Source: an uncultured Gellertiella sp.
Lineage (GTDB): Bacteria; Pseudomonadota; Alphaproteobacteria; Rhizobiales; Rhizobiaceae
Direction of reading: 5' to 3'
Assembly (NCBI RefSeq): GCF_963457605.1
Contig: NZ_OY735139.1
Location: 806,001-870,000, forward strand
DNA length: 64,000 nucleotides
The translations under genes and the position numbers were made by a program. A model generated the notes under the pieces. That model saw nothing but the letters and a program-made list of their open reading frames with translations, was not told the DNA's origin and ran no database searches. Shown here one piece after another: positions 6,234 to 57,961 of this stretch. Position 1 is the first letter of the stretch. Each line of letters begins with the position of its first letter.

Positions 6234-9200
6234 TTACGCGGCGCGGCGGAAGGTGTAGGTGCGGCGGTTGTCGCTGGTGACGATGCCCATGCGGTGGAGT
6301 GCGGCGAGCACCGCCTCGACGGATTTGCGCGCCTTCTGGCCCTGCCTGAACCGGGCGGCAATCAGGCTGGCGTCGAGCGGTTCTTCCGCCGCCATCAGCT
6401 GATGCAGCACCACGGGTGTCTGCTCGCGCTCGTCGCTCGGGAAGCTCGGCTTTGGTCCGGATTTTTCCACGGGCGCATCGCCGAGGTCATATTCCAGCTG
6501 CTCGGCCTTTTCGCGCTCGGAGCCGAAACGCGGGATCTGGTAATCCGGGCGCAGCCAGCGCACCAGCCCGCGCCCTTCCTCCTTCGCCCGTGCCCGGTTG
6601 AGCGCCACGAGCCGGGCCAGAACCTCCTCCTCCGGCAGATCGGCGGGCCAGCCATAGGCATCGGCAACCGCGACATCCAGCCGGTCATGCAGTTCCTTCA
6701 TAATCAGCACCAGCCCGTCATCGAAAATCCGCCGCTCCCTGGGTGCCAGCCCCTCCGGCTTCACCCCCGCCCGCAGGTGTTCGAGCACATTGTAAAGCCC
6801 GGTCAGCGTCAGATGTTCATGCGCCGCCAGCACCCGCTTGCGATGGGAATCAAGCTCCTCGGCAAGACTGCCGATGCGGTCTTTTTGCGCGTCGGTGGCG
6901 GCAGGGAACGGGAAGGGATCGAAGCAGCGGGATTTTACATAGACGGGATCATTACCGACCCCCAACCAGCCGCCAGCGCGAATTGACCATGAAACATGAA
7001 TGGATGACGACAAAACGCCCAAGGCAAAACCATCGCTCACGCCAATTGCCACCAGCTTATTGTCCGGCAAAATGGAAATATCCAGAAACTGGAAAACCCG
7101 GTGTTTTGCCGTTTCCACGGTTGCGATGTAGCGGGGCAGGTTGGCGAGGGCTGGCCGCAAATCCTTTCGTGGCTCGCCGAATATCCACCAGTTATCGCGA
7201 TAGGAGGCCCGGTTATTCGCATCCCTTTCAGGCTTCACCGCAACCATAACGTGCTGATACACAGCCGGATATCGCGCCCTCACCTCGTCTGCCGACAGGC
7301 CGAACAGGTCGATGACCATCACCCCGCGCGGCCGATCCATCAGGTCGCGGCCATTCCGGTAGGTTCGGATATGCTGGTCCAGTCCCGCAATGTGGCCCAG
7401 CCCCAGACCTTCTGCCTCTTCGGGACTGACGATGAAACCGGCACCATGTAACTTCACGCCCGGTGAACACACGCCAGAATTGGCGGTCAGTTCAACAGCA
7501 CTGGTCACATCCACCCCAACCGTCAGATCCGCATTGATCCTGCCGCGCTTCTCCGCAAACTGGATCACCGGGCTGTCGGTTTCCACGCCCGTTTCCGAGG
7601 TCACCTCGAACATGAGCCCGTCCGCCTTGCCCGCTTCAGCCACGGTCATGGCAATGCGCACGGCGGCGGCGTCGCGGGTGAGTTTGGTCCAGGGATGATC
7701 GGCAATCGCCATCACCAGCGACAGCGGCTTTTTCGCATTCAGATGCGGCTCCATCACCCGGCGCTGAAACACCTGGCTGATCGAATTGGTGGTGACGAAG
7801 CCGAAGCGCTTCAGCCGGCTTTTCGGCTTCAGCAGGATTTCCGCCGAACGGTCCCACCAGTACATGACGAAATCGGCGCTGTCGTTCAGGTGCCGGTGCG
7901 CCGTCCACAGCGCCTGCGTATAGGCCGAACCCATGCGGGCCCGCAGATCCTTGCCGCCAATGAACGGCGGATTGCCGACGATATAATCCGCCTCCGGCCA
8001 TTTCGGCCGCCGGGGATTGGGATAGACCTCGCGGCCGTCCTCGACCCTGGGCACCGGATAGCCATCCCACAGCAGCACCGCATCCCGGCATTCGATATTG
8101 CGGAAAGCCTTCAGGATCGGCTCCGACGGTGCCACGCCCCGGTTGCGGAAATGCCATTGCAGATGGCCGATCCACAGCACCAGCTCGGCAATCGCCGCCG
8201 CGCGCGGATTGAGCTCCAGCCCGAGAAACTGGTGCGGATCGACCGTATGGCTGTCGAGCGACAGCGCCTCCTGCCCGCCCAGGTCGTTCAGCGCCTCCAG
8301 CACCTCGCCTTCCAGCCGCTTCATCAGCTCCAGCGACACGTAGAGGAAATTGCCGGTGCCGCAGGCGGGATCGAGCACCCTCGTCTCGCAGAGCCGGTCG
8401 TGAAAGGCCTGCACGGTGCGGATCGCCGCCTCGCCCTTGCCCTCGGATTTCTGCCGGTCGGCGGTGGACCGCGCCACATCCCACTCGGCGCGCAGCGGAT
8501 CGATGACAGTGGCAATCACCAGCCGTTCCACATAGGCGCGCGGCGTGTAATGCGCGCCCAGCTTGCGCCGGTCATCGGGATCAAGCGCCTGTTCCAGAAA
8601 GGTGCCGAAGATCGCCGGTTCCACATCCTTCCAGTCGTGGGCGGCCGCCGCCGCGAGTTCGCCGATCTCTTCGCGCGCCAGCGGCAAGGCGCGGCGGTTC
8701 TTGAAGAATTCGCCGTTGAATTTCTTGACTCTCGTCTGGATCGCGGCGGCGAAACTGCCCTCGTCCATCGCCCGCCACAGGTCCTCCATCATGCCCGGAA
8801 AGATCTCCGGCTTGCCCGCGCAAAGCGCCAGCACCGCGCTGAAACTGTCCTTCGGCAATAGCTCGACATCTTCGGCAAACATCGTGAACAGCACCCGCAT
8901 CAGGAACATCGCCACCTCTTCGGTGGGGTGGCCGGCCTTTTCCAGCGCCTGGCTGACCCTGGCAATCCGCGCCGCAATCTCGCGCGTCACCTTGGCCGCA
9001 TGGCGGGAGGGATCGAGCGACAGCGGATCGCTCCAGATCGCCTTCAGCAGGGCGCGGGTGGCGGGCTCGCGCAGGTCTTCCAGATAGATGCGGAACGAGC
9101 GGCGATCCGGAAACTGGTCATAGGCCTTGCCGTCGCGGCGGAAATTCGCATAGACCTCGATGCAATGGCCGACATCGCAGATCAGCACGAAGGGCGGCGG

Positions 9201-9641
9201 CTCATGGGCGGCGGGAAGCAGCCGCACATAGTTTTCCGCCTGGGTGCGGGCATTCATCATCAGCACGTCCCAGGAACGGTTGGCCGCGACCCTGCGGCCC
9301 CGCTGCCCCGTTGCCTCGCCGCCAGGCTGCGGCGTCTCCAGCAGCTTCTTGTCGCCGGAAAGCCGGCTCTGCTTGGCTTCCAGCACGAAGCAATCGCGCT
9401 TGTAGAGATCGATCCGCTTCTGCGACACCGTGCCATCACGCCCGGTCTCGCGCACCACCCGCTCGAAGGCATAGTCATTCGTCTCATGCGACGCATTGGC
9501 CGCATCGGGATGGGCAAGCTCCAGCACATCGCAAAGCTCCAGCAGGAACATGCCATAATTGGCCCGCTCCTGCCCGCCTTCCTGCCCCTGCCACCTCGTG
9601 ATGAACTGTTCGATTCGCCCCTGCATGCCGCCCGCCCCCAT
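6234..9641 (-). CDS. MmeI-like type IIG restriction endonuclease / N6-adenine DNA methyltransferase
   Basis: A single 1135-residue protein. Near the N-terminus is a PD-(D/E)XK-type nuclease motif, D78, E88 and K90 (spacing D-X9-E-X-K as in MmeI). A helical spacer follows, then an N6-adenine methylase with SAM motif I DPACGTG at 424-430, [24 protein letters not shown], and catalytic NPPF at 557-560. The second half should carry target recognition (around [36 protein letters not shown]) and a C-terminal helical domain ending in a winged-helix-like tail. This is the whole plan of MmeI-family enzymes, which cut and modify DNA with one polypeptide. Both catalytic centres look intact. The start at 9641 is uncertain; an in-frame ATG five codons later is possible. 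It lies between the AAA ATPase and the CRISPR array on the same strand as both, consistent with a defence island. A methylase-only role cannot be excluded. Confidence 0.85.
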   Translation of the reverse strand: [1135 protein letters not shown]

Positions 9642-9991
9642 GTGAGACCTGTTTTAGATTGCAAGGCGGATGATGCAAGGGGGATATTGGGGGGATGAAG
9701 GAGGCATCATGGAAGGACGCAAGTTCGGGCAGGCCCGGTGCGCCTGCCGAATGCGAAGCAAATCAACAGCCTCCCCGGGGGGGGCAAAGCGCCACCCGGG
9801 GCAACGCGCCACCCGTTGATAAACATCAATGGCCTCGAAATACCGCCGTCTTCGCCCCTCCCTTCTCCGCCCGCATCATGACCGCAGCAAGGCGCATGCA
9901 CACAACGACACCACCCCGGCACGCGCTCCGCTCCACACCCTCCCGCAAGGCAGGCGATAATATTCCACCGCCCATCCATGGCTTCGCAGGC
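9642..9991. other. Gene-free stretch between the methylase and the CRISPR array
   Basis: GC-rich sequence with homopolymer-like runs around 9776-9835. No frame resembles a protein. It contains the methylase promoter region and the trailer beyond the leader-distal CRISPR repeat. Confidence 0.5.
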
Positions 9992-10285
9992 GCTTCAATC
10001 CACGCCCCCCGTGAAGGAGGGGACTATCCTCGCCGTGGTCGCTGACGATCTGGTCTAGGTTTCAATCCACGCCCCCGTGAAGGAGGCGACCAGGCCCAGC
10101 GCCGCCGTCACACCGATGTCCTGGTTTCAATCCACGCCCCCGTGAAGGAGGCGACATGCCTATTCGCTGCAGCGTGACACTGCCTATCTGTTTCAATCCA
10201 CGCCCCCGTGAAGGAGGCGACTCAACTGCCGGTGCCGGATGGTGCCGGTACTGGTTTCAATCCACGCCCCCGTGAAGGAGGCGAC
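9992..10285 (-). CRISPR. Type I-C CRISPR array, 5 repeats and 4 spacers, leaderless
   Basis: On the + strand the 32-bp repeat starts GTTTCAATCC and ends GGAGGCGAC. On the minus strand it ends ATTGAAAC, the usual type I-C orientation, so transcription would run from high to low coordinates. Repeats lie at 9992-10024 (degenerate, 33 nt, leader-distal), 10059-10090, 10124-10155, 10190-10221 and 10254-10285. Spacers are 34, 33, 34 and 32 nt. The repeat folds as a hairpin (CGCCTCC pairing with GGGGGCG), as needed for Cas5c processing. Only 10 bases separate the leader-side repeat from the IS21-family element. The leader that should lie toward cas2 is absent. Confidence 0.97.
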
Positions 10286-10408
10286 GACATCCGCGTGTTG
10301 ATTTCCACGCAGAACTGAGCCGGTTAGGCGCATAATTTCCATTGAGAACTGAGCCATGTGAACCTTCCCCCCAACGCGGTGAGCGACGGGGGCAACGGAG
10401 TGATCCAC

Positions 10409-11941
10409 ATGGGACTTTTAAACATCATCCGTCGGATGGCGCTGCGCGAGAAGCAGTCGATCCGCGAGATCAGCCGACGCACTGGGCTGTCGCGTAACAC
10501 GATCGCGAAGTATTTGAGCGCTGGTACGATCGAGCCGACGTTCACGGTACCGGAACGACCAAGCAAGCTCGATCCTTTTGCCGACAAACTGGCTGGCTGG
10601 CTGAAGACCGAGGCCGGGAAGTCGCGCAAGCAGCGCCGAACGCTGAAGCAGGTTCATGCCGATCTGGTGGCTCTCGGCTTTACCGGCTCCTATGGTCGGG
10701 TCGCCGCCTTCGCCCGTGAGTGGCGAGTTGATCGGCAACGTGAGCAGCAGACGACGGGCCGTGGCATATTCGTTCCGCTGTCATTCCGCCCAGGCGAAGC
10801 ATTCCAATTCGATTGGAGTGAAGATTATGCCGTGATCGGCGGCGAGCGCACGAAGCTTCAGGTCGCACATATCAAGCTATCGCACAGTCGGGCTTTTCTG
10901 GTCAGGGCATACCTGCTGCAAACGCACGAGATGCTCTTCGATGCCCATTGGCACGGATTCCGCGTGTTCGGCGGTGTGCCATCGCGGGGAATCTATGACA
11001 ACATGAAGACGGCGGTCGATCGCGTCGGCCGCGGCAAGGAGCGACAGGTCAATATCCGTTTCCTCGCGATGACGAACCATTACGTCTTCGCGCCTGAGTT
11101 CTGCAATCCCGCTGCGGGCTGGGAGAAGGGGCAGGTCGAGAAGAACGTCCAGGATGCCCGACCACGCCTGTGGCAACAGATGCCAAGCTTCCCTGATCTG
11201 GCAGCGCTGAACGCCTGGCTGGAACAGCATTGCCAGGATCTGTGGCGCGAGACTGCACACAACACATTACCCGGTTCGATCGCCGACGTCTGGGTCGCAG
11301 AACAGGCCGCGTTGATGGCACTGCCTCCCGCTTTTGATGGCTTCGTCGAGCAGAGCAAGCGCGTCTCGCCGACATGCCTGATCACCTTTGAACGTAATCG
11401 TTACAGCGTGCCAGCATCGTTTGCGAACCGGCCCGTCAGCCTGCGGATATATCCCGAGAGACTGGTGGTTGCGGCCGAGGGCAATATCCTATGCGAACAT
11501 GTGCGGATCATTGAGCGCAGCCACGACAAGCCGCCGCGAACGTTTTACGACTGGCGACATTACCTTGCCGTCATCCAGCGCAAACCCGGTGCCCTGCGCA
11601 ATGGTGCACCCTTCCTGGAATTGCCGCTGGCCTTCAGACAGTTGCAAGATCAGATGCTTCGCCGCCCCGGCGGTGATCGTGAGATGGCCGATATCCTTGC
11701 CCTTGTCCTTCATCACGACGAACAGGTCGTCCTCAGGGCTGTGGAACTGGCGTTGGATGCGGGGGTGGCGACCAAGACGCATGTGCTGAACCTGCTGCAT
11801 CGGCTGATCGACGGCAAGACAATCGATGGTCCCGACATCGATACGCCACAGGCTCTGATCTTGCTGCGTGAACCCAAAGCAAATGTCGAACGCTATGATG
11901 ACCTACGCGCCCGGATCGCAGGAGGCCGCCATGCGTCATGA
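10409..11941 (+). CDS. istA: IS21-family transposase IstA
   Basis: About 510 residues from [22 protein letters not shown], chosen because GGAG lies 9 bases upstream; the frame stays open further upstream. An N-terminal helix-turn-helix ([18 protein letters not shown]) is followed by a DDE integrase core: [19 protein letters not shown] and [10 protein letters not shown] supply the acidic residues, then a beta-barrel-like C-terminal part ([28 protein letters not shown]). IstA cuts and joins the element ends with IstB as ATP-dependent target selector. The gene looks intact and overlaps istB by 11 bases. Confidence 0.93.
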
Positions 11942-12725
11942 TCCCGCCAGCGCCGCCGTCGTCATCATGCTGCGGAGCCTGAAGATGTATGGCATGGCCC
12001 AAGCCGTCACGGATCTGATCGAGCAAGGTGCTCCGGCTTTTGATGCGGCCGTGCCCATCCTGTCCCAGTTGCTGAAGGCCGAATTGGCCGAGCGCGAGGT
12101 ACGCTCTATTGCCTACCACATGAAGGCTGCCCGCTTTCCTGCGTACAAAGACATCTCCGGCTTCGACTTCACCGCCAGCGAGATCAACGAGGCCACCGTG
12201 CGCCAACTGTACCGATGCGAGTTCATGGATGGGGCGCAGAACGTTGTCCTTATCGGTGGCCCTGGCACTGGCAAAACGCATGTCGCGACCGCTCTCGGAA
12301 TCCAGGCCATCGAGCATCATCGCCGAAAGGTCCGCTTCTTCTCGACCATCGAACTGGTCAATGCTCTCGAACAGGAGAAGGCCAAAGGCAAGGCAGGCCA
12401 GATCGCCGAGACGCTGGTTCGCCTCGATCTGCTGATCCTGGACGAACTGGGATATCTTCCCTTCAGCGCGTCCGGCGGAGCGCTGCTCTTCCACCTGTTG
12501 AGCAAGCTCTACGAGCGGACCAGCGTGGTGATCACCACCAACCTCAGCTTCAGCGAATGGGCAACCGTCTTCGGCGACGCCAAGATGACGACCGCCCTGC
12601 TCGATCGTTTGACCCATCGTTGCCATATCCTGGAAACCGGGAACGACAGCTTCCGCTTTAAAGCCAGCTCGGCTGCCGCAGCACACAAGAGAGGAGAAAA
12701 AGCCAATCCCTTGACCAAACCCTGA
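11931..12725 (+). CDS. istB: IS21-family helper ATPase IstB
   Basis: 264 residues from [23 protein letters not shown]; the ATG at 11931 follows GGAGG by 5 bases and overlaps the istA end, normal for translational coupling in this family. DnaC-like AAA+ features are Walker [10 protein letters not shown], Walker [13 protein letters not shown] and [18 protein letters not shown], ending in [22 protein letters not shown]. IstB remodels target DNA and directs insertion. No damage is seen. Confidence 0.93.
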
Positions 12726-12800
12726 TCAGAAAACCATACTCAGAGGTGGCTCATTTCTCGGTGGAAAAACCGGCTCAGTTCCGCGTGAAAACCAACACAC

Positions 12801-12921
12801 TAGAGTTTGTCAGGGAAAAGTGGAATCCGGTTTTCCCGCTCAAACTCGTTTGAGCGAAAAGACAAACGAAAACAAATTTGCTTGGAGTCTGTCAGGTTCT
12901 ATCTGAACCTGACAGACTCTA
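12801..12921 (+). mobile_element. MITE, short form (121 bp including flanking TA)
   Basis: Begins TAGAGTTTGTCAGGGAAAAG and ends CCTGACAGACTCTA. The ends match each other and the ends of the adjacent IS630-family element (TAGAGTCTGTCAG). Internally it has a short hairpin (CTCAAACTCGTTTGAG) and a right-hand palindrome (GAGTCTGTCAGGTTC...GAACCTGACAGACTC). Compared with the 160-bp copies it lacks one hairpin arm and one copy of the CTCAAAC...GTTTGAG unit. It abuts the IS630 element, sharing the TA at 12920-12921. Confidence 0.8.
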
Positions 12922-12934
12922 GAGTCTGTCAGTT

Positions 12935-13880
12935 TTAGATAGAAGCATATCCTGCATGCGTGATGTATCGCGAGCATTCTTCAGGGGTAAATTCTTTGAG
13001 GAGTTCTCCGATGCGACGCCAAGTCGTTTCAATGGTTCGCTCCTCGGCTTTGCGGACGAGCGTTTTCAGCTTTGAGAACATCATTTCGATTGGATTGAGG
13101 TCTGGTGAATAGGGCGGCAGAAAGAACATGCGAGCCCCTTGTGCCCGCACCGCCTCGCTGGCGGCCTTGCATTTGTGGCTGCCCAGGTTGTCGAGGACGA
13201 CAATGTCACCGGCTTTCAGCACGGGGACAAGACATTGCTGAACCCATGCTGTAAAGGCGATACTGTTGATGGGGCCGTCGAGCACGAAAGGCGCAACGAT
13301 GCCGTTGCGCCGCAGCCCGGCCAAAAAGGTCAGTGTTTTCCAGTGGCCATGCGGCACCTTCGCGATCAGGGGCTGACCGCGCGGGCACCAGCCGCAGGTC
13401 CGCGTCATGTTGGTCTTGACCCAGGTCTCATCAATGAAAACAAGCCGTTCCGGATCAATCCGGTGCTGATGGGCCTTCCAACGCGCTCTGAACCTTGCCA
13501 CTTTCGGCCTGTCCTGCTCACTGGCTACCAGCGTTTTTTTTAAAGGTATTTCCCTGGCTGCGCAGGAACCGCCACACCGTATCGTGTGATACATGGATGC
13601 CAAACGACTGAAGATCGGCGGCAAGGGCTCTGACCGTCCAGTCAGACTTTGCGGCCAGCCGCTGGCGCACCTTCTCTGCCAGGTCACCGCTCAGAATGGG
13701 CTTGACATGGCCGCCAATTTTCGATGGCAGCAGCCCTTTGCCCGAGCGCGAAAGCTGACCGATCCGAACCGCCGAGGCGACCGATATTCCAAACCGTTCC
13801 GCCGCCGCGCGAACAGTCATGCCACCCGTCAACGCATCCGCCACCCGGGCCCGCAAATCAAGAGAAAGAGGCTTCACCAT
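12935..13880 (-). CDS. IS630-family transposase, two frames joined by -1 frameshift
   Basis: The upstream frame (13518-13880, from MVKPLSLDLRARVADALTGG) encodes the helix-turn-helix half: MTVRAAAERFGISVASAVR and WTVRALAADLQSFGIHVSHDTVWRFLR. The downstream frame (stop at 12935) encodes the DDE catalytic half: LVFIDETWVKTNM, IVVLDNLGSHK and SPDLNPIEMMFSKLK carry the D, D and E. The frames overlap at a run of eight A (13534-13541 on the minus strand, TTTAAAAAAAAC); a -1 slip there joins ...TFKK to KTLVASEQ. Both halves are otherwise clean, so this reads as programmed frameshifting rather than decay. GGGAGG precedes the ATG. Confidence 0.88.
13534..13541 (-). promoter_or_regulatory. A8 slippery site for -1 ribosomal frameshift
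   Basis: Eight consecutive A on the coding strand, preceded by TTT, exactly where the two transposase frames must be joined. Homopolymeric A runs are classic -1 slippage sites in insertion sequences. Confidence 0.65.
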
Positions 13881-13970
13881 CCTTGCTGGCCTCCCTTCCA
13901 GCAAGATGCTTGAATCAGAAAAAACACAAAATTGGAATCCCTCCAGATTCAATTTGTCACTGACAGACTC

Positions 13971-14047
13971 TAGTGGAATTTACGAATTTGACATTCGATC
14001 CTCGAGATCGCGGCGAATGGGCATCGAATGTCAAATTCATTCCACTA
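13971..14047. repeat. 77-bp near-perfect palindrome between cas2 and the IS630 element
   Basis: Starts TAGTGGAAT and ends ATTCCACTA. The inner arms GAATTTGACATTCGAT and ATCGAATGTCAAATTC pair, leaving a ~27-base loop. Its right end supplies the TAG stop of cas2. CTAG occurs at both outer edges (13970-13973 and 14045-14048). It may be a small MITE of a different family or a terminator-like hairpin of the cas operon. Confidence 0.7.
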
Positions 14048-14335
14048 GATGATCAGCGGTGCGTTGAGGTCGGTGGCGGGTTTGGCACCGACATGCTCCA
14101 CCCGCCTTTGCCAGTTGGCACCGAGATAGTAATAGCGCAGGCTGTCGAGATCAGGATTGATGATGCCTTCCAGCCGGGCCTTGAGCTTGACCCACTGGGC
14201 CGGGTCCACCTCGATCTCGAAGACGGAAAACTGCACCCGCTGGCCGAAATCGCGGCAGGCTTTTGCCACCCTGCGCAGGCGGGCCGGGCCATTTCCGTCA
14301 AGCGTGTGGACATCATAGGTCACCAGAACCAGCAT
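14045..14335 (-). CDS. cas2: CRISPR-associated endoribonuclease/integration factor Cas2 (type I-C)
   Basis: 96 residues, ferredoxin-like Cas2: [31 protein letters not shown] with catalytic-position Asp in TYDV, then [15 protein letters not shown] and [20 protein letters not shown], typical of type I-C Cas2. With Cas1 it forms the spacer-integration complex. It lies 9 bases after cas1. The stop codon overlaps the outer end of a palindrome, but the protein length is normal, so it does not look truncated. Confidence 0.95.
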
Positions 14336-14344
14336 GGCTTTGCC

Positions 14345-15379
14345 TCACTTCCAGAACCAGGGCGGATAGGCGTCGAGATCGCCACGCAGGTGGCGGGCAA
14401 GCATTTGCGCCTGCAGATAGGGCACGAGGCCCAGCGGTGCCTTTTCCTCGAGAAACACATGCAGCCGTTCTTCCCGCTTTCGCTCCTGCCAGGCGGTCAG
14501 CACGGTTTTGCGCGCCTCCTCGCTGAGCAGCACCGCCCCGCCCTCCTGGCGTTCGAAATCGCCTGCGCGCAGCTGGCGGCGGTTGAGGAGCGACAGGGCC
14601 AGACGGTCCGCCAGCACCGGGCGAAGCTCCTCCATCAGGTCGAGGGCAAGGCTTGGCCGGCCCGGCCTGTCTCGGTGCAGAAAGCCTGCCGCCGGGTCGA
14701 GGCCGACGCTTTCCAGCGCCGAACGGCAATCGTGGGTCAGCAAAGTATAGAGGAAGGACAGAACCGCGTTGACGGGGTCGAGAGGCGGGCGGCGGGAGCG
14801 CGCCGTCCATCGCAAACCGGCGTCGGGCGAGCGGATCAGCGTGTCGAATACCGAGAAATAGAGATTGGCGGCCTCCCCTTCCGAGCCGCGCAGCTGGTCC
14901 AGCGCCATATCGGACAGCTCGACCCGGCGCAGGATCCGGGCGAGCCGGTCGGTCACCTCTTCCACTCTGGCCCGGTCTTGCGGCAACAGGTCTGTGCCAT
15001 GGTCGCGCAGCGACCGCATCAGCACTGCGCGCTGATTGGCGATCTTGCCGATCAGGAAGGAGCGGACCACCTCCTCCGGCTGGTCGCAGACCCGGTATTG
15101 CGCCCGCCGCAGCAGGATATTGCCACTGACCGGCCCTTCCAGCCGCGCCAGAAACCGGCCGTTGCGGTCAAGGAAGGTGAGCGTGATGCCCGCCGTGGCC
15201 AGAGCCCCCATCAGCGGCGGCGAGACATAACTGGCCCCGAACACCACCACAGCCGACAGCATGTGCAGCGGCACCCGGCTGCGCTCGGTGCCGTCGATCT
15301 CCGCCACCAGATTTTCGCCATCCTTGCGAAGCGCCGCACCCTCGGTGGTGACATAGATGGTGTTGAGCAGCTTCTTCAC
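14345..15379 (-). CDS. cas1: CRISPR-associated integrase Cas1 (type I-C)
   Basis: 344 residues from a GTG start (VKKLLNTIYVTTEGA), which overlaps the cas4 stop as GTGA; longer upstream openings would run into cas4. The N-terminal beta domain (LHMLSAVVVFGASYVSPPLMGALATAGITLTFLDRNGRFLARLEGP) precedes the all-alpha catalytic domain with GSEGEAANLYFSVFD (metal-binding Glu), PLDPVNAVLSFLYTLL, LDPAAGFLHRDRPGRPSLALDLMEELRP (His and Glu ligands). All catalytic positions appear present. It inserts new spacers at the leader end of an array, which here is missing nearby. Confidence 0.96.
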   Translation of the reverse strand: MKKLLNTIYVTTEGAALRKDGENLVAEIDGTERSRVPLHMLSAVVVFGASYVSPPLMGALATAGITLTFLDRNGRFLARLEGPVSGNILLRRAQYRVCDQPEEVVRSFLIGKIANQRAVLMRSLRDHGTDLLPQDRARVEEVTDRLARILRRVELSDMALDQLRGSEGEAANLYFSVFDTLIRSPDAGLRWTARSRRPPLDPVNAVLSFLYTLLTHDCRSALESVGLDPAAGFLHRDRPGRPSLALDLMEELRPVLADRLALSLLNRRQLRAGDFERQEGGAVLLSEEARKTVLTAWQERKREERLHVFLEEKAPLGLVPYLQAQMLARHLRGDLDAYPPWFWK

Positions 15380-16044
15380 GGGGCGATGTCTCCGGCAAGA
15401 TTTTGCGCGATCATCCGGGCACGCCAGGCCTGAACGGGCCGGGCGATGGCATCGGGGCGGCAAAGGTCGATGAGCGAGCAGGCACGGCAGCGGGCGCGAT
15501 GCGGGGTGGGTGGCGGGGTGCGTCCGGTTTCAAGAATTGCGGCCAGCGCCGCCACGGTCTCCTCCGTCAGGCGGCGCAGGTCCTCATCGAAGGGCACGAC
15601 GAGCCGCCGCTTCGTTTCGGCATAAAACAGCGCGCCTTCCGGCACCGGCCGCCCCGTCATCTCCTCAAGGCAGAGCGCCTGGGCGCAGAGCTGCACCTCA
15701 TCGGCCCGGTGCAGCTTGGGCTTGCCGCGCTTGTATTCCAGCGGCCAGGCGGTGCTGCCATCCGGACCATCGCGAAACTCCACCACATCGGCAATGCCCG
15801 ACAGGTTCAGCCGGGTGGAGGCGAGCGGCAGGGCCATCACCCGGCGAATGCCGCGCAGCTTGCGATGGCCGCCCTTGTCGGCGACCGCGTGCAGCACATT
15901 GCCCTCTGCCGTGAAACGATTGTCGGCCCAGGCCCGCTCGACATGGATCAGCGCCGCCTGCCGCAGGCAATAGACGGCGTGCTGCAGGGCGGAGAGCGGA
16001 ATGGGCTCCCGCTCCTCCCCGGCCGCAATGACGCCGCCCGTCAC
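15376..16044 (-). CDS. cas4: CRISPR-associated exonuclease Cas4
   Basis: 222 residues of the RecB-like Cas4 family. A first cysteine in HAVYCLRQAAL and a C-terminal cluster CRACSLIDLC supply the four iron-sulfur ligands. Nuclease residues lie in GIADVVEF (Asp), WPLEYKRGKPK (E-x-K) and DEVQLCAQALCLEE (QxxxY-like motif with C). Cas4 trims prespacers and selects PAM-containing ends before Cas1-Cas2 integration. It begins 3 bases after the cas7 stop and overlaps cas1 by 4 bases. Confidence 0.94.
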   Translation of the reverse strand: MTGGVIAAGEEREPIPLSALQHAVYCLRQAALIHVERAWADNRFTAEGNVLHAVADKGGHRKLRGIRRVMALPLASTRLNLSGIADVVEFRDGPDGSTAWPLEYKRGKPKLHRADEVQLCAQALCLEEMTGRPVPEGALFYAETKRRLVVPFDEDLRRLTEETVAALAAILETGRTPPPTPHRARCRACSLIDLCRPDAIARPVQAWRARMIAQNLAGDIAP

Positions 16045-16047
16045 CGG

Positions 16048-16998
16048 CTACAGCCTTTCGATGATCTCGACACCTGACGGCAGGGTCTCCCTGTCGATGG
16101 TGATGATATAGTCGGAAAAGGCCCGGGCAGGCGGCAGGTTGTCGAGACGTCTGTCGATGGTGCGAAATTCGCCATCGACATTGCGGCCAATGCGGATCCG
16201 GTCAAACAGGCTGTGGGCCGGGGCATTGCCCAGCGCATTGTCGTGCTTGAAGATGATCAGCCGCCGTGTTGCCATTTCGCCGCGCGCCGCCGATCTGTCA
16301 TGCTCGAACATCGACCCGAGCGCCTCGAACAGCAATTCCAGATCCGCTTCCGAAAAGCCGGTGCGCCCGGCAAACCTGGCGGAAATGAAGCCATGCGCCA
16401 CATAGAGGCCATAGGGCACGATATGCTTGCGGCCCATGGTGCGGTTATCGGTGCGATCGCTGGAATCGTCGCCCTCCGCCTTCTGCTTCTTTTCGCTTTC
16501 ATTGGTGGCTGCCATGCGGGTGATGGAAATTTCAAGCGGCATGATCGGCTCGACGGAATGGGCAAAGGCGATCTGCACGGGACCCTTGACCTGCCCGCAA
16601 TTGACGCCGGTGGACATCACCGCCCCGAAGGTGCGCACATCGAAGAAATTGTCGCACATGAACTTCTTCAGTTCCCCGGCCTCGGTATCGTCGCGCGGGT
16701 TCAGCTTGGCATCCTTGTCGACTTTCGGATCGTCGCGGCGGATCGACCGGTAGGCCTTGCGGTGCTGGTCATTGAGGATCGCCCCTTCCTCGACATAGAT
16801 GTGAAACCCGTCCTGGCCATGGCGGGCGAGATCGACGTAATTGCGGATCTTCCGCTTCAGGCTGACATCCGTCACCAGACCCCGGTTGGTCTCCGGGTCG
16901 AGCCGCGGCAGGTTGCCGGCATCGGGATCGCCATTCGGGTTGCCATTGGTGACTTCGAAAATCAGGGCAAAGTCATAGCGGTTGGTGATCGTGGTCAT
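16048..16998 (-). CDS. cas7: Cascade backbone protein Cas7 (Csd2, type I-C)
   Basis: 316 residues, normal for Csd2. It starts MTTITNRYDFALIFEVTNGNPNGDPD, the diagnostic type I-C Cas7 opening, and contains DVSLKRKIRNYV, FFDVRTFGAVMSTG, GQVKGPVQIAFAHSVEPIMPLEISITRMA and GRKHIVPYGLYVAHGFISA. It coats the crRNA spacer within Cascade. The ATG overlaps the cas8c stop as ATGA, indicating translational coupling. Confidence 0.96.
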   Translation of the reverse strand: MTTITNRYDFALIFEVTNGNPNGDPDAGNLPRLDPETNRGLVTDVSLKRKIRNYVDLARHGQDGFHIYVEEGAILNDQHRKAYRSIRRDDPKVDKDAKLNPRDDTEAGELKKFMCDNFFDVRTFGAVMSTGVNCGQVKGPVQIAFAHSVEPIMPLEISITRMAATNESEKKQKAEGDDSSDRTDNRTMGRKHIVPYGLYVAHGFISARFAGRTGFSEADLELLFEALGSMFEHDRSAARGEMATRRLIIFKHDNALGNAPAHSLFDRIRIGRNVDGEFRTIDRRLDNLPPARAFSDYIITIDRETLPSGVEIIERL

Positions 16999-18764
16999 TC
17001 TGCGTCCCCCTCGGATACGGTGCTGGTTGTCTTTTTGAAGAATTCGCTGCGCTGGTGGTAGTAGCCAAGGCCGAACAGGGCCTGTTCCTCGGCTGACAGC
17101 GATGCCGGGAACGGGTCTTTGCCCGGCTGCATCATGTCCATGACGGCCGCCACCTGCTTTTCCAGCACCACCCTGTAGCCGGGCTTCTGCTTGCCGATTT
17201 TCGACAGGTGGTTGACCGAACCGCTGTCGAGGGCCCGGAACACCTTGCGCGGCTGCGCCGAGGCCGCGCCATAAAACTTGTCCTTGATGGTGGAATTCAC
17301 CTTGCTGCCAAGCGCTGCCGACTGGATCTGCTCGTAAGTGGCGAAAAGCCTGCCAAGCAGATAGCCTTTGTTGCTGTTGTCCGGGTCGAGTGCCACGGGT
17401 GCCTCCCTTTTGAAATTTCGGATCAGGACTGCTTTGAGAATTCCGGCCCGCAGCGCATTGACGTCCCCGTCGGCGCGGATGCGGGTAAGGACGGACGACA
17501 TCAGTGTCAGGGGAAAGGCGCCGCCGGCGAGAATGGCGCGCATCCATTCCCCGGCCAGATTGGCCGTGACATTTTCCCGCTTGCCGAGCACCGCCGTTTC
17601 CAGCAAATAGCGCCAGACGGGCGGCGTGCCGCCGCGCGGCGGCGGCTCGATCCGCATGTCGCTGACAAACTTTTGATAGCGTTCCGTCAATTGGCCGAAA
17701 TCGTCTTCGTGATAGAAACGCACCGACAGGCGGGCGGCATTGGGCGCAAGTCCGAGGATGAAAAAGCGCACGCCCCTGTCCAGCCCGGGCGCGACATCGG
17801 CAAGCGGCAGGCCCTGGCGAATTTGCTCCAGCTTGATGGCAATCTTTCGGGTGGCTGCCTTTTCTGCCGATGCCTGCACCGCTTCGGCTCCATCGTCCTG
17901 GTCGAAATAGCCCGAAAACAGCCACTCCGCCTCTTCCGCCGCTTCGAAATCCTCCGCATCCGCCCAGAATACGGTCGTGGCATCGCCAATCTGGATGCGA
18001 TGCCCACTGTCGCGCTCCAGAAAGCGGTTCAGCGCGGTGGTATAGGCAAAGGCCGCGGCTTCGGAGACGGGCGCGTTGTCGCCCTGTTCGTGACCGTAGG
18101 AGGTGAAGGCATCCAGATTGAACGAGACAAGGGCTGCCCCGGAGGATTGTGCGCCCCAGACACCCTTGATCGAGGGGTGAAGCCGGGCGATGGCCGCTGT
18201 CTGTCCCGAGACAAGGCAGATTTCGCTCTGCCCCTCGGCACCCCCGGCAACATCAGACCACAGGGCTTTCGCCGCCGGCCTGTCATGCAACAGGACGTGG
18301 CGCAATCTTTCGCTTTCGAGCGCGAAAACCACATTCTGGTCCTTCATCTCGTCCGGCCAGGCAGGCGGCACGAACTGCTCAGGCTTCCAGCCCTGCAAGA
18401 ACAGAAGCAGTGCGCGAAGGCCCGCATCCTGCGTGCCCTCAATCGCGTCAAGATGCTTTTTCACGAAGGCGTCGTGTTCCTCCGCCGTGCGCGTTGCCTT
18501 GCCAGCGGTGACCCCCAGCACATAGGAGGTCTTGTCCCAGAGAAAATTCGGCGCAATGCCTGCGGTCCGCTTCACAGGTTGCGGCACCAGCACCGGTCTC
18601 GGCCTTGCCTTCCTGCCCTCGCCCTCACGCCAGTCGATCACCGTCGCCACGGTTCCGTCGTCGTGCAGGGAAATGATAAACCCGATCTTTTCAGAGGAAT
18701 AGCCATAGGGCGGAGCATCGGGCAGCCGGTCATAGGCCCGGGCGAGGGAGGAGAGTATGGTCAT
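16995..18764 (-). CDS. cas8c: Cascade large subunit Cas8c (Csd1, type I-C)
   Basis: 589 residues, the usual size of Csd1. It opens MTILSSLARAYDRLPDAPPYGYSSEKIGFIISLHDDG and contains RTAGIAPNFLWDKTSYVLGV, GVWGAQSSGAALVSFNLDAFTSYGHEQGDNAPVS, WADAEDFEAA, FFILGLAPNAARLSVRFYHEDDFGQL and SAEEQALFGLGYYHQRSEFF, all characteristic. It recognises the PAM and, through an internal start, often supplies the small subunit as well. It overlaps cas5c by 4 bases and cas7 by 4 bases. Intact. Confidence 0.96.
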   Translation of the reverse strand: MTILSSLARAYDRLPDAPPYGYSSEKIGFIISLHDDGTVATVIDWREGEGRKARPRPVLVPQPVKRTAGIAPNFLWDKTSYVLGVTAGKATRTAEEHDAFVKKHLDAIEGTQDAGLRALLLFLQGWKPEQFVPPAWPDEMKDQNVVFALESERLRHVLLHDRPAAKALWSDVAGGAEGQSEICLVSGQTAAIARLHPSIKGVWGAQSSGAALVSFNLDAFTSYGHEQGDNAPVSEAAAFAYTTALNRFLERDSGHRIQIGDATTVFWADAEDFEAAEEAEWLFSGYFDQDDGAEAVQASAEKAATRKIAIKLEQIRQGLPLADVAPGLDRGVRFFILGLAPNAARLSVRFYHEDDFGQLTERYQKFVSDMRIEPPPRGGTPPVWRYLLETAVLGKRENVTANLAGEWMRAILAGGAFPLTLMSSVLTRIRADGDVNALRAGILKAVLIRNFKREAPVALDPDNSNKGYLLGRLFATYEQIQSAALGSKVNSTIKDKFYGAASAQPRKVFRALDSGSVNHLSKIGKQKPGYRVVLEKQVAAVMDMMQPGKDPFPASLSAEEQALFGLGYYHQRSEFFKKTTSTVSEGDAE

Positions 18765-19429
18765 CGCAGCACCTCGCGCGAGCCGGGATGCGGCACCGGC
18801 ATCACGCCCTTTTCAAGCTTCGCCCGGAAGAACAGCGACGGCCTGCCCTTCGCCTGATGGTCGATGTCAAACAGCATGAAGCCGAGATCGCGGCTGTCCC
18901 CGATGGCGGCAGGCAGGGGGGCATCCGGGGGCACAAGCGCGAATCGCGCGGCAAATTCACGGGTGCCGAGACAGGGCTGGTGAAAGCACTGGCCGCGTTC
19001 TGCACGACGGTTGAAAATATCGAGATGCTTGCCCTCGCTGTCATCAGGGCCGGCCTTGCCGGTCATCTCGAAATGCGCCTCGATCAGATAGGCGGGCCTG
19101 ACCAGAACCAGCGATGCCCGCTGCTGCCGGTCCTCGTCGACCAGCAGGTTCAGGCCTTCCAGATCACCCCGCTTCAGGGCAGACCTGATCTTGCCCGCCG
19201 GTGCCTTGTGGCCAACCTCGTTGCGGCGGATCGACTGGAAACGGATCGGTTCCAGCACATGGATGGCGTCCACCACCCAGCGGATGGCCGGCTTCCAGTG
19301 CACCGCCTCCAGTATCCCGCGCGCCGCAGACGGCGTCATCACATCATAAGAGACCCGCTCCACCTTGGTTTCAGGCCTGGTAAAACAGCCATAGTCCCCC
19401 GACACCCTGAGACGAATTCCGTAGGTCAT
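18761..19429 (-). CDS. cas5c: CRISPR-associated Cas5c (Cas5d) pre-crRNA endoribonuclease
   Basis: 222 residues beginning MTYGIRLRVSGDYGCFTRPETKVERVSYDVMTPSAARGILEAVHWKP, the standard Cas5d N-terminus with the RAMP ferredoxin fold. Later segments are RFQSIRRNEVGHK, YLIEAHFEMTG, FNRRAERGQCFHQPCLGTREFAA and DLGFMLFDIDH. In type I-C, which lacks Cas6, this protein cuts the repeat hairpin and stays on the 5' handle. It starts 163 bases after the end of cas3. Confidence 0.95.
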   Translation of the reverse strand: MTYGIRLRVSGDYGCFTRPETKVERVSYDVMTPSAARGILEAVHWKPAIRWVVDAIHVLEPIRFQSIRRNEVGHKAPAGKIRSALKRGDLEGLNLLVDEDRQQRASLVLVRPAYLIEAHFEMTGKAGPDDSEGKHLDIFNRRAERGQCFHQPCLGTREFAARFALVPPDAPLPAAIGDSRDLGFMLFDIDHQAKGRPSLFFRAKLEKGVMPVPHPGSREVLR

Positions 19430-19592: not shown

Positions 19593-21878
19593 TCACCAGA
19601 TCAAATCCTCAGTCGCCAGATACTCCGCATCCTCCCAGATCAAGCCCAGTTGCGGATCATAGAGGCTGGGTTTCTGCAGCACGGCGAACTGGTCTCCCCG
19701 CAGCTCCGGCGCAACGAAGGCGACGTGGCCGCAGGCGACAAGCCGCGCCCGGGCTTTCGGCGGCACCTGCACGGTGAAGGATTGCAGCTTGCGGGCCAGA
19801 AGCCCGCCTGGCACATCCGGCAAGGAGAGTTTCCTCACCCAGTCCTGCGCCTCCGCCTCGATGGCGATGATGACCGGCACCAGCCCGCTTTCGATCATGC
19901 GGAAATCATCCCCGGCCTTGCGATAGCAAAAATCGGTTCCTGACGGCGCGAGGCTGAAATTGTCGAGGACCGATTTTGCATCCAGCCCCGACTCGCGCAC
20001 CCGCCAGTAGACCTCGGCGTAATAGTCCGCCATGGCAGCCGGTGCGGTCAGATCCGGATGCCTGTCGATGATCCGTTTCATGTCGCCGATCAGGCCGGCG
20101 ATCTCGCGCGGCGGCTTGTGTTCCGCCGGGGTGAAAACCGCAAGGATACTGTCCCCGCGCGCCTGCCGTCCCTCGCGGTTGACCCGGCCCGCCGCCTGGA
20201 TGATCTGGTCGAGCCCCGCCTCCGCCCGAAGGCCGGCGGGAAAATCCACATCCACGCCCGCTTCGATCAGGCTGGTGGCGATCAGCCGGCAAGCGGCCCC
20301 GGTGGCCAGCCGATGCCGCACTCCTTCCAGAATCCGGCGGCGATCCGTGGCATGGTGCCGTGTGGTGAGATGCACCAGTCCGTCCAGCCCGGCCTCCCTC
20401 GCCGCGTTGAAGAGGTCCATCGCATGGCGACGGCTGTTGACGATCACCAGCATCTGGTGAGCCGCACCAAGCCTGTCCACCAGCGCCGCATCGTCCAGCG
20501 TGCCCGCGTGGCGGATATGGGTGCGGGCGAGTTGCCGCGCCAGCCCTTCGGGATCGGGGGCGAGTTCCCGGTCCGCCTGAAGGGGCAAGCCCTGGGGAAA
20601 TTCCGGCCGCACGCCCAGCATCGGCTGGGTTGCCGTGCAGAGCACCACGCTGCAGCCATAGCGCGCCACCAGTTCCTCCAGCGCCCGCATCACCGGCAGC
20701 AGCAGCGGGCGCGGCAAGGTCTGCGCCTCATCCAGGATGAGGATGGAATTGGCGATATTGTGCAATTTGCGGGCGCGCGATGGGCGGGCCGAAAACAGGC
20801 TTTCGAACAGCTGGACGGTGGTGGTGACGATGACCGGCGCGGCCCAGTCTTCCATGGCGAGCTTCAGCTTGTCGCGGTGCTCCCGCTTCCTGATGTCCTC
20901 CTCATCGATATTGGAATGGTGCTCCAGCACATGTTCGTCGCCCAGCACGTCGCGGAAAATCGCGGCGGTCTGGTCGATGATCGAGGTGAAGGGGATGGCA
21001 TAGATGATGCGCGACTTGCCATGCTGACGGGCGTGATCGATGGCAAAGCCCAGTGACGCCAGCGTCTTGCCGCCGCCGGTGGGAACAGTCAGGCTGAACA
21101 GGCCGGGCTCACGGCTGGCCCCTGCCCGCACCTGCGCCAATATATCGGCCCTGAGCGCCGCAATCCCGGTTTCCGGCCTGCCGAAAGCCGCAATCCTTGC
21201 CTCGAACCGCGCCAGAAAACCGGGCAGCAAGGCCGGCAGTTCCGGCCAGCACCGGTCTTTCGCGGCCTCACCGAGCGAGACATAGTAGCTTTCGGTGTCC
21301 TTGAAATCGGCATCCACCAGGCAGGAAAAAATCATCCGCCCGACAAAGGACAGCGCAAAGGCCCGCTTGCCGGCATCCCTGAGCACAAAGGGCTTAAGCT
21401 CCGCAACTGTTCCCTCAAGGCAGCGCGTGCCATCAGGCGCCAGTTCCGTCTGCCAGGTCTCATCCACCCGCAACGGCTTTGCCATCCTGGTATCGAGACA
21501 GGCATTGGTTTCATTCTGGCGATCCGGCAAACCGGCGTGATGGCCGAGGATGGCATAGGCGATGATCTCGGCGACCAGCCTTTCCGGCCCCCTGGCAAGG
21601 TCGCGCAGCACCTGCGCACCGGCGGTGGAATGGTCGACGGAAGCCCCCTGCCCGCCAATATAGGCCTGAAAGGCCGGGTCATATTTGCCAAGATCATGAA
21701 ACAGGCCCGCCGCAAAGGCGATGCGGCCAAGGCCAAAAGCTGCGGCATGGCTTTCTGCCCGGCGGGCAACCGCCAGAAGATGGTCAGCCAGCCGCTGCCA
21801 GTCCGCCCGCCCTTCAGCTTTGCCACTATGGGCGTGAAATAATCTGCAAGGCACTGAAAAACACTTATCCGCCACCAT
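19593..21878 (-). CDS. cas3: CRISPR-associated helicase/nuclease Cas3 (type I)
   Basis: 761 residues with an N-terminal HD nuclease and an SF2 helicase. HD features are HAHSGK at 15-20, GLFHDLGKYDPAFQAY (H61, D62) and GHHAGLPD near 112-119. The helicase has Walker A VPTGGGKT at 265-272, DEAQ at 383-386 in place of DEAH, CTATQPM near 414-420, and motif VI QAAGRVNREG at 561-570. Cas3 unwinds and degrades DNA marked by Cascade. It is the first gene of the operon; no catalytic defect is visible. The ATG at 21876-21878 follows a weak AAGGG. Confidence 0.96.
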   Translation of the reverse strand: MVADKCFSVPCRLFHAHSGKAEGRADWQRLADHLLAVARRAESHAAAFGLGRIAFAAGLFHDLGKYDPAFQAYIGGQGASVDHSTAGAQVLRDLARGPERLVAEIIAYAILGHHAGLPDRQNETNACLDTRMAKPLRVDETWQTELAPDGTRCLEGTVAELKPFVLRDAGKRAFALSFVGRMIFSCLVDADFKDTESYYVSLGEAAKDRCWPELPALLPGFLARFEARIAAFGRPETGIAALRADILAQVRAGASREPGLFSLTVPTGGGKTLASLGFAIDHARQHGKSRIIYAIPFTSIIDQTAAIFRDVLGDEHVLEHHSNIDEEDIRKREHRDKLKLAMEDWAAPVIVTTTVQLFESLFSARPSRARKLHNIANSILILDEAQTLPRPLLLPVMRALEELVARYGCSVVLCTATQPMLGVRPEFPQGLPLQADRELAPDPEGLARQLARTHIRHAGTLDDAALVDRLGAAHQMLVIVNSRRHAMDLFNAAREAGLDGLVHLTTRHHATDRRRILEGVRHRLATGAACRLIATSLIEAGVDVDFPAGLRAEAGLDQIIQAAGRVNREGRQARGDSILAVFTPAEHKPPREIAGLIGDMKRIIDRHPDLTAPAAMADYYAEVYWRVRESGLDAKSVLDNFSLAPSGTDFCYRKAGDDFRMIESGLVPVIIAIEAEAQDWVRKLSLPDVPGGLLARKLQSFTVQVPPKARARLVACGHVAFVAPELRGDQFAVLQKPSLYDPQLGLIWEDAEYLATEDLIW

Positions 21879-23953: not shown

Positions 23954-23992
23954 CAGAGTCTGTCAGGTTCAAAGTGAGCCTGACAGGCTCCA
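23954..23992. repeat. MITE palindrome fragment
   Basis: AGAGTCTGTCAGGTTC followed, after a short loop, by GAGCCTGACAGGCTC is the right-hand palindrome of the MITE family standing alone, with terminal TA degraded to CA. Confidence 0.7.
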
Positions 23993-24001
23993 GGCGACGG
24001 C

Positions 24002-57714: not shown

Positions 57715-57801
57715 GCCCGCCTGGCCACAGGCATTTTCGGGCTGCCGACGGCTGCACGCGCGGCGCGCGGCCCCCGCAGGCGACGTTTTTCGTCTTTTCT
57801 T

Positions 57802-57961
57802 TAGAGTCTGTCAGGTTCAGATAGAACCTGACAGACTCCAAGCAAAATTGTTTTCGTTTGTCCTTTCGCTCAAACGAGTTTGAGCGCTCAAACGAGTTTG
57901 AGCGGGAAAACCGGATTCCAAACGCAAAACGTCGTTTGCGTGTTTTCCCTGACAAACTCTA
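57802..57961 (-). mobile_element. MITE, long form (160 bp), reverse orientation
   Basis: Same element as 41037-41196 read on the other strand: minus-strand start TAGAGTTTGTCAGGGAAAAC, two CTCAAACTCGTTTGAG-type palindromes, right palindrome ending CCTGACAGACTCTA. TA bounds both ends. Confidence 0.8.

Follow-up and report, generated by a model that had tools for sequence, protein, structure and literature searches.

In Xanthomonas citri pv. citri, two insertions of IS21-family elements (ISRso19-like; IS, insertion sequence) are described within the array of clustered regularly interspaced short palindromic repeats (CRISPR), hitting a repeat in one case and a spacer in the other, and in the excerpted report the assignment of this system to type I-C rests on a named csd1/cas8c gene (PMC6889575). 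In the Mycobacterium tuberculosis complex, the portion of the report available describes IS6110-linked deletions of the CRISPR/direct repeat (DR) and CRISPR-associated (cas) gene region (PMC5310062), and in Bacteroides fragilis transposase genes adjoin CRISPR loci according to the relevant passages (PMC5704556). The locus considered here is a type I-C system of an uncultured Gellertiella sp., located in a 64-kb window (C2:806001-870000, where C2 is contig NZ_OY735139.1; window positions count from its first base) of a 4.17-Mb genome in two contigs that is 99.63% complete. With a probability of roughly 0.8, this locus was frozen by mobile DNA, having lost its leader while keeping its old spacers and cas genes. 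An initial reading of the letters, referred to below as the original prediction, had pointed in this direction.

The X. citri arrays share with the window an IS21-family element inside a CRISPR array, although in the excerpted report they keep the leader and the leader-proximal spacers (PMC6889575), whereas the window has lost its leader and the leader-side part of the array. In the M. tuberculosis complex, as in the window, CRISPR-cas DNA was deleted and an IS remains at the site, but the element belongs to another family and, in the portion available, the losses of the four deleted-DR strains include at least cas2 and cas1 (PMC5310062), while the window keeps its cas genes and four spacers. 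In B. fragilis, transposases, one of them IS21-type, likewise lie directly beside cas genes or arrays; unlike what is seen in the window, the relevant passages describe no leader deletion (PMC5704556). The locus is a new, well-resolved example, IS21-family array insertions and IS-linked CRISPR-cas loss having already been published. The I-C systems of Xaviernesmea rhizosphaerae MH17 (locus L005) and Rhizobium oryzicola 05753 (L007) are like that of the window in their Cas proteins (Cas1 91% identical), repeat family and array-cas2 orientation. Both keep a 216-nucleotide (nt) leader, with 14 and 7 repeats, respectively, whereas the leader of the window is gone, and their repeats end in ATCGAAAC as opposed to ATTGAAAC.

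Absence of the leader

Adaptation in type I systems depends on the leader. Because the array follows cas2 in relatives, the leader is expected at the high-coordinate end of the array (9992-10285), which comprises four identical 32-mer repeats, four whole spacers and one degenerate terminal repeat. The 32-nt repeat and spacer lengths within 32-35 nt are those of type I-C, and I-C relatives carry similar repeats. The array and the DNA up to the cas2 stop codon contain the following features (MITE, miniature inverted-repeat transposable element; bp, base pairs):

9992-10024, minus strand: degenerate terminal (trailer-end) repeat, 33 nt
10025-10058, minus strand: spacer 4 (oldest), 34 nt, no accepted protospacer
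10059-10090, minus strand: perfect repeat
10091-10123, minus strand: spacer 3, 33 nt, matching the tape-measure gene of Rhizobium phage RHph_X3_2
10124-10155, minus strand: perfect repeat
10156-10189, minus strand: spacer 2, 34 nt, no match found
10190-10221, minus strand: perfect repeat
10222-10253, minus strand: spacer 1 (newest kept whole), 32 nt, no accepted protospacer
10254-10285, minus strand: leader-side repeat, perfect
10286-10295, minus strand: 10 nt between IS21 and repeat, most likely a spacer remnant
10296-12797, plus strand: IS21-family element with istA (10358-11941), istB (11868-12725) and terminal inverted repeats
12801-12921, no strand: MITE of 121 bp with IS630-type ends and TA on both sides
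12920-13972, minus strand: IS630-family element with a DDE_3 transposase (12935-13687), an overlapping upstream frame (13518-13952) and TA on both sides
13971-14047, no strand: right half (77 bp) of a 167-bp two-hairpin element, left half missing

Only mobile DNA separates cas2 from the array, in the order (low to high) IS21, 3 nt, MITE, IS630 and palindrome, and the earlier description of this interval, including the 3 nt between MITE and IS21 and the 10 nt between IS21 and the repeat, is borne out. The usual arrangement is different. Of 80 I-C loci fetched, 78 had a cas2 match and 6 were cut short or N-filled, leaving 72 evaluable relatives, and in 69 of these a repeat follows about 177-318 nt after the cas2 stop (three, L006, L038 and L075, were counted by a directly seen repeat that the array finder had missed). 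Three loci depart from it: in L055 and L058 the array is found in another part of the locus, and in L068 an IS21 occupies the junction.

A leader-core profile built from 18 loci and 80 positions matched 21 of 23 hand-picked held-out control loci at 22-75 bits (74.8 for L006) and, at an E-value of at most 0.1, 63 of the 80 loci overall and 45 of the 62 held out. It had no match in the window at default filters, and its best score in 9900-14400 with filters off was 4.1 bits; the flanks of the six full IS21 copies (L085-L090) gave no profile match either. The leader that lies between cas2 and the first repeat in a functional, adaptation-competent I-C locus is thus absent, as had been claimed.

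The conserved alphaproteobacterial I-C leader core (L005-L084) begins 2-143 nt past the cas2 stop and consists of an inverted repeat, GCGAACC / GGTTCGC, whose arms lie about 25 nt apart, followed by TTTGAAATCGTGAA. This core may be bound by factors of adaptation or transcription. The profile helps to separate intact from leaderless I-C loci near Rhizobiaceae and misses distant ones. Locus L006 of Rhizobium sp. SG_E_25_P2 is a remnant, with a truncated cas4, cas1, cas2, leader and one or two decayed repeats; its 17-kb locus has no match for cas3, cas5, cas7 or cas8c.

Elsewhere in the genome, no leader was found beside a repeat among the best 150 of 2478 candidates of the profile search, which had no whole-genome positive control, and a BLAST search of the genome with the L005 leader, also run without a positive control, was empty. 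Relocation of the leader was considered and rejected, the best profile match among these 150 candidates (C2:1876009) not being beside a repeat. No other I-C repeat occurs in the whole assembly at up to 3 mismatches to a degenerate I-C consensus, a search that a strongly decayed repeat would escape. Since the profile search scored these 150 candidates and its best score is ambiguous, the genome-wide absence of a leader rests mainly on this absence of further repeats. Service of a second array in trans, which had been proposed, is not supported by the repeat search for this isolate.

Mobile DNA and deletion at the junction

The IS21-family element carries istA, istB and terminal inverted repeats, with istA recognized by its length, position and Mu-transposase C-terminal domain. 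The IS630 element has the DDE transposase and TA insertion site of the IS630/Tc1-mariner group, and MITE, IS630 and palindrome are joined via common TA dinucleotides. IS21, IS630, MITE and palindrome can each be considered mobile because other copies exist in the genome: at least five further full copies of IS21, hence at least six with that of the window (among the best 40 of 104 candidates), at least 4 of IS630, more than 20 MITE-like and at least 14 of the palindrome (among the best 40 of 259 candidates). One IS21 copy, in opposite orientation at C2:612616-615118, has a single difference in 2502 bases. MITE-related repeats also flank the cas operon (12880-12920 and 23955-23995) and recur near 57799-57920; the operon could be relocated or lost if these repeats recombined with one another.

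The palindrome had been listed among the mobile DNA. That holds, yet the 77 bp are no complete element: they correspond to the right half of one that has two hairpins and spans 167 bp, and its complete form, at C2:3268536, consists of two hairpins and a 15-nt linker. Fourteen other palindrome copies were read with their flanks, five of these at greater length, and the left half is kept in 13 of the 14 (the exception is L234); the copy at C2:3107753 scores 62/63 for the left half when the longer flank is read. The best score for the left half in window positions 9001-15000 is 30/63. At C2:427600-428300, a MITE occupies the internal TA, beyond which the left half is retained. Nesting at the internal TA also occurs in the window, but on one side only, and the first base after the TA of the half-element completes the cas2 stop codon TAG. 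The loss of the left half, with IS21 abutting, shows a deletion on the cas2 side of IS21 and is independent evidence for the earlier claim that insertion was accompanied by deletion. As RNA, the palindrome forms a strong fold (-28.5 kcal/mol, z -3.6); as no U-run follows the hairpin, it is not called a terminator.

On the array side, the 10 nt that separate IS21 from the first repeat were compared with the leader tips of 10 relatives and agree in 1-3 of 10 positions, where about 2.5 are expected by chance. This chance-level similarity suggests that IS21 probably ends inside a spacer. The loss of the newest spacers, which had been stated outright, is therefore graded as probable: at least part of one spacer was probably lost. 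Among other arrays, 66 loci with 2310 repeat-spacer steps contained two gaps longer than 85 nt (127 nt in L042 and 1129 nt with N in L057), an undercount as draft assemblies break at IS elements.

The window IS21 lacks the short target-site duplication of its family, and its left and right flanks are dissimilar. A 9-bp duplication was seen at just one of the six full copies (C2:3381703); those at C2:612616, 1676011, 3049990, 138562 and 816296 have none, and this suggests that deletions or rearrangements linked to IS21 are common in this genome. No exchanged duplications that would reveal recombination partners were seen between the IS21 copies when their flanks were compared by eye.

The cas operon

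On the minus strand, from 21878 down to 14045, the genes cas3, cas5c, cas8c, cas7, cas4, cas1 and cas2 lie in one operon, the gene set of type I-C:

14045-14335, minus strand: cas2, generic NCBIfam model, PADLOC Cas2c and Pfam; stop codon 14045-14047
14345-15379, minus strand: cas1 (I-C), I-C-specific NCBIfam model and Pfam
15376-16044, minus strand: cas4, generic NCBIfam model, PADLOC Cas4c and Pfam
16048-16998, minus strand: cas7 (csd2), I-C-specific NCBIfam model, the only cas gene without a Pfam match
16995-18764, minus strand: cas8c (csd1), I-C-specific NCBIfam model and Pfam
18761-19429, minus strand: cas5c, I-C-specific NCBIfam model (cas5) and Pfam
19593-21878, minus strand: cas3, generic NCBIfam model, PADLOC Cas3c and Pfam; HD and helicase motifs

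All seven genes are full length, have no internal stops and match I-C or generic Cas families, so that the operon is complete and intact, as first described. Cas3 contains the HD, GHH, Walker A, DEAQ and QxxGRxxR motifs. The E, H and D of Cas1 are likewise present, as are two stretches sought in Cas2 and, in Cas4, a cysteine cluster and ExK. Mean ratios of nonsynonymous to synonymous substitution (dN/dS) per cas gene are 0.06-0.20 in pairs with the window and 0.05-0.19 in pairs of relatives; the synonymous component (dS) often nears saturation, with values close to or exceeding 1 in many pairs, and pairwise values do not allow a change in selection to be assigned to a branch. Near-normal, slightly raised ratios are to be expected if the event was recent.

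The site at which memory is written has thus been lost while every protein gene is intact, and gene-based annotation would call the system functional. A complete cas operon alone is a poor ground for inferring active adaptation.

Possible origin and competing explanations

The ancestral state would have been an ordinary I-C locus with the order cas3-5-8c-7-4-1-2, a leader of about 200 nt and the array. Half of the two-hairpin element now stands at the cas2 stop, with IS630 and MITE at a TA that is internal to its complete copies, while the interval contains neither the left half-element nor the leader core, and IS21 bridges the gap to the last repeats. This arrangement could have arisen by an IS21-linked deletion or by recombination between two IS21 copies, and the deleted stretch would have started midway through the two-hairpin element and ended within a spacer. 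Without a leader, Cas1-Cas2 would have no integration site in cis and no new spacers would be gained. Leader-dependent adaptation should thus be lost in cis, and to call it impossible, as the original prediction did, seems fair. The array would also lack its own promoter, with crRNAs (CRISPR RNAs) weak or absent unless there is read-through from the cas operon or IS630; its transcription is doubtful, judging by the sequence. As a natural leader deletion, the locus offers a setting for studying leaderless crRNA production. That the cas genes are still intact would follow if the change is recent, in keeping with the single difference in 2502 bases to the other IS21 copy.

A milder outcome would be that the four old spacers still interfere, as a fixed memory under selection, with transcription reaching them by read-through from the cas operon or IS630 or from a promoter at the IS21 end. 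The intact cas genes with low dN/dS, the match of spacer 3 to a phage protospacer with its flanking motif and seed, and the IS630 transposase frames on the cas strand are in line with this outcome, but gene intactness is also explained by recency, and about 3.7 kb of mobile DNA intervenes, including the 2.5-kb IS21 in opposite orientation. Furthermore, a consensus scan, which is weak evidence, found no minus-strand sigma-70-like promoter in 9900-14400, so that the proposed rescue of interference by an IS promoter has no sequence support. Persisting interference is therefore conceivable but tentative. Insertion without deletion, in which IS21 entered at the leader-repeat junction, with the 10 nt as leader tip and a leader that disappeared in a separate event or never existed, appears unlikely. 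It has a parallel in Hyphomonas polymorpha (L068), where the leader core is retained and a related IS21 begins about 10 nt ahead of the place expected for the first repeat; against it stand the 1-3 of 10 matches to leader tips and the lost half-element, which shows that DNA was also deleted across IS21 from the array. The leader could also lie elsewhere in the cell if near-identical IS21 copies had caused a misassembly or a real rearrangement, for which the opposite-orientation copy would be a partner. This is very unlikely, since no further repeat occurs anywhere in the assembly, the flanks of the six full IS21 copies hold no leader match and the genome-wide search placed no leader beside a repeat among its best 150 of 2478 candidates.

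Loss of the leader by deletion remains the favoured reading, and several observations weigh against it. The profile misses 17 of the 62 held-out loci, mostly distant relatives or early-cut contigs, plus L055 and L058. Its best genome match, at C2:1876009 (16.8 bits, E 0.018), scores like the true leaders of distant relatives; no I-C repeat is found there. As five of the six full IS21 copies are without a target duplication, its absence at the window copy is not site-specific. Mean dN/dS is slightly above that of relative pairs in all seven window cas genes, which could reflect mild relaxation. Finally, no sister isolate with an intact junction was found, with a cas match in none of the four other genomes of the genus (best 7 places each).

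Spacer targets

Checking the spacers against phages and plasmids gave one accepted match. Spacer 3 and the tail tape-measure gene of Rhizobium phage RHph_X3_2 agree at 28 of 33 positions; positions 1-14, the seed, are identical, and TTC stands directly 5'. In the annotated phage gene frame, three of the five mismatches are synonymous and two are Leu/Met exchanges. The raw BLAST E-value is 0.3, and the assignment is carried by the protospacer adjacent motif (PAM), seed and reading frame rather than by that value. The I-C PAM is TTC/TTT in Neisseria according to the excerpted report (PMC10865793), and TTC is given for Xanthomonas oryzae in the passage available (PMC8406640). In the window system, TTC is seen at this one protospacer only, the other three spacers having no accepted match. 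A degenerate spacer-3 pattern matched 71 IMG/VR contigs, the best at 29 of 33; the pattern included TTC, and these matches give no independent evidence on the PAM.

Sequence and flank were inspected for four candidate protospacers, and three of these were rejected: spacer 4 against a Pseudomonas amygdali plasmid (26/34, no TTC) and against a Sulfitobacter IS5 element (gapped; 19/34 ungapped), and spacer 1 against Pseudomonas phage MP42 (23/32, flank CTC). The other weak matches were judged from their listed entries alone and none was accepted, namely at least 105 phage and at least 6 plasmid records for spacer 1, at least 16 plasmid records for spacer 3, and at least 3 phage and at least 46 plasmid records for spacer 4. 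Spacer 2 had no match among phages or plasmids, and exact 20-nt seeds of the four spacers found none in IMG/VR (0/4). Comparison of the array DNA with 394 genomes of the family, at the best two places per genome, returned mostly arrays and is uninformative on spacers. As for self-targeting, spacers 1, 2 and 4 had no second genome match at up to 3 mismatches, and for spacer 3, searched by the degenerate tape-measure pattern alone with 2 mismatches, only the spacer itself was found.

Related and neighbouring features

An IS21 relative (IstB 79% identical) lies at L068:9530-10662 in H. polymorpha PS728, where the contig ends inside the IS. It is the only close relative of the window element in the 80 I-C loci; a second, in L052, has an IstB just 35% identical. 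Perhaps IS21-family elements meet I-C arrays above chance, by target choice at leader-repeat or spacer DNA or because loss of adaptation is favoured, and repeatedly freeze such systems, but this seems quite improbable. The cases for such an association are the window, L068 and the two published X. citri insertions, and the L068 parallel is probably a curious coincidence, too little for a claim of target preference.

Beyond the trailer end of the array, about 350 nt away, the window encodes a type IIG restriction enzyme-methyltransferase of 1135 amino acids (6234-9641).

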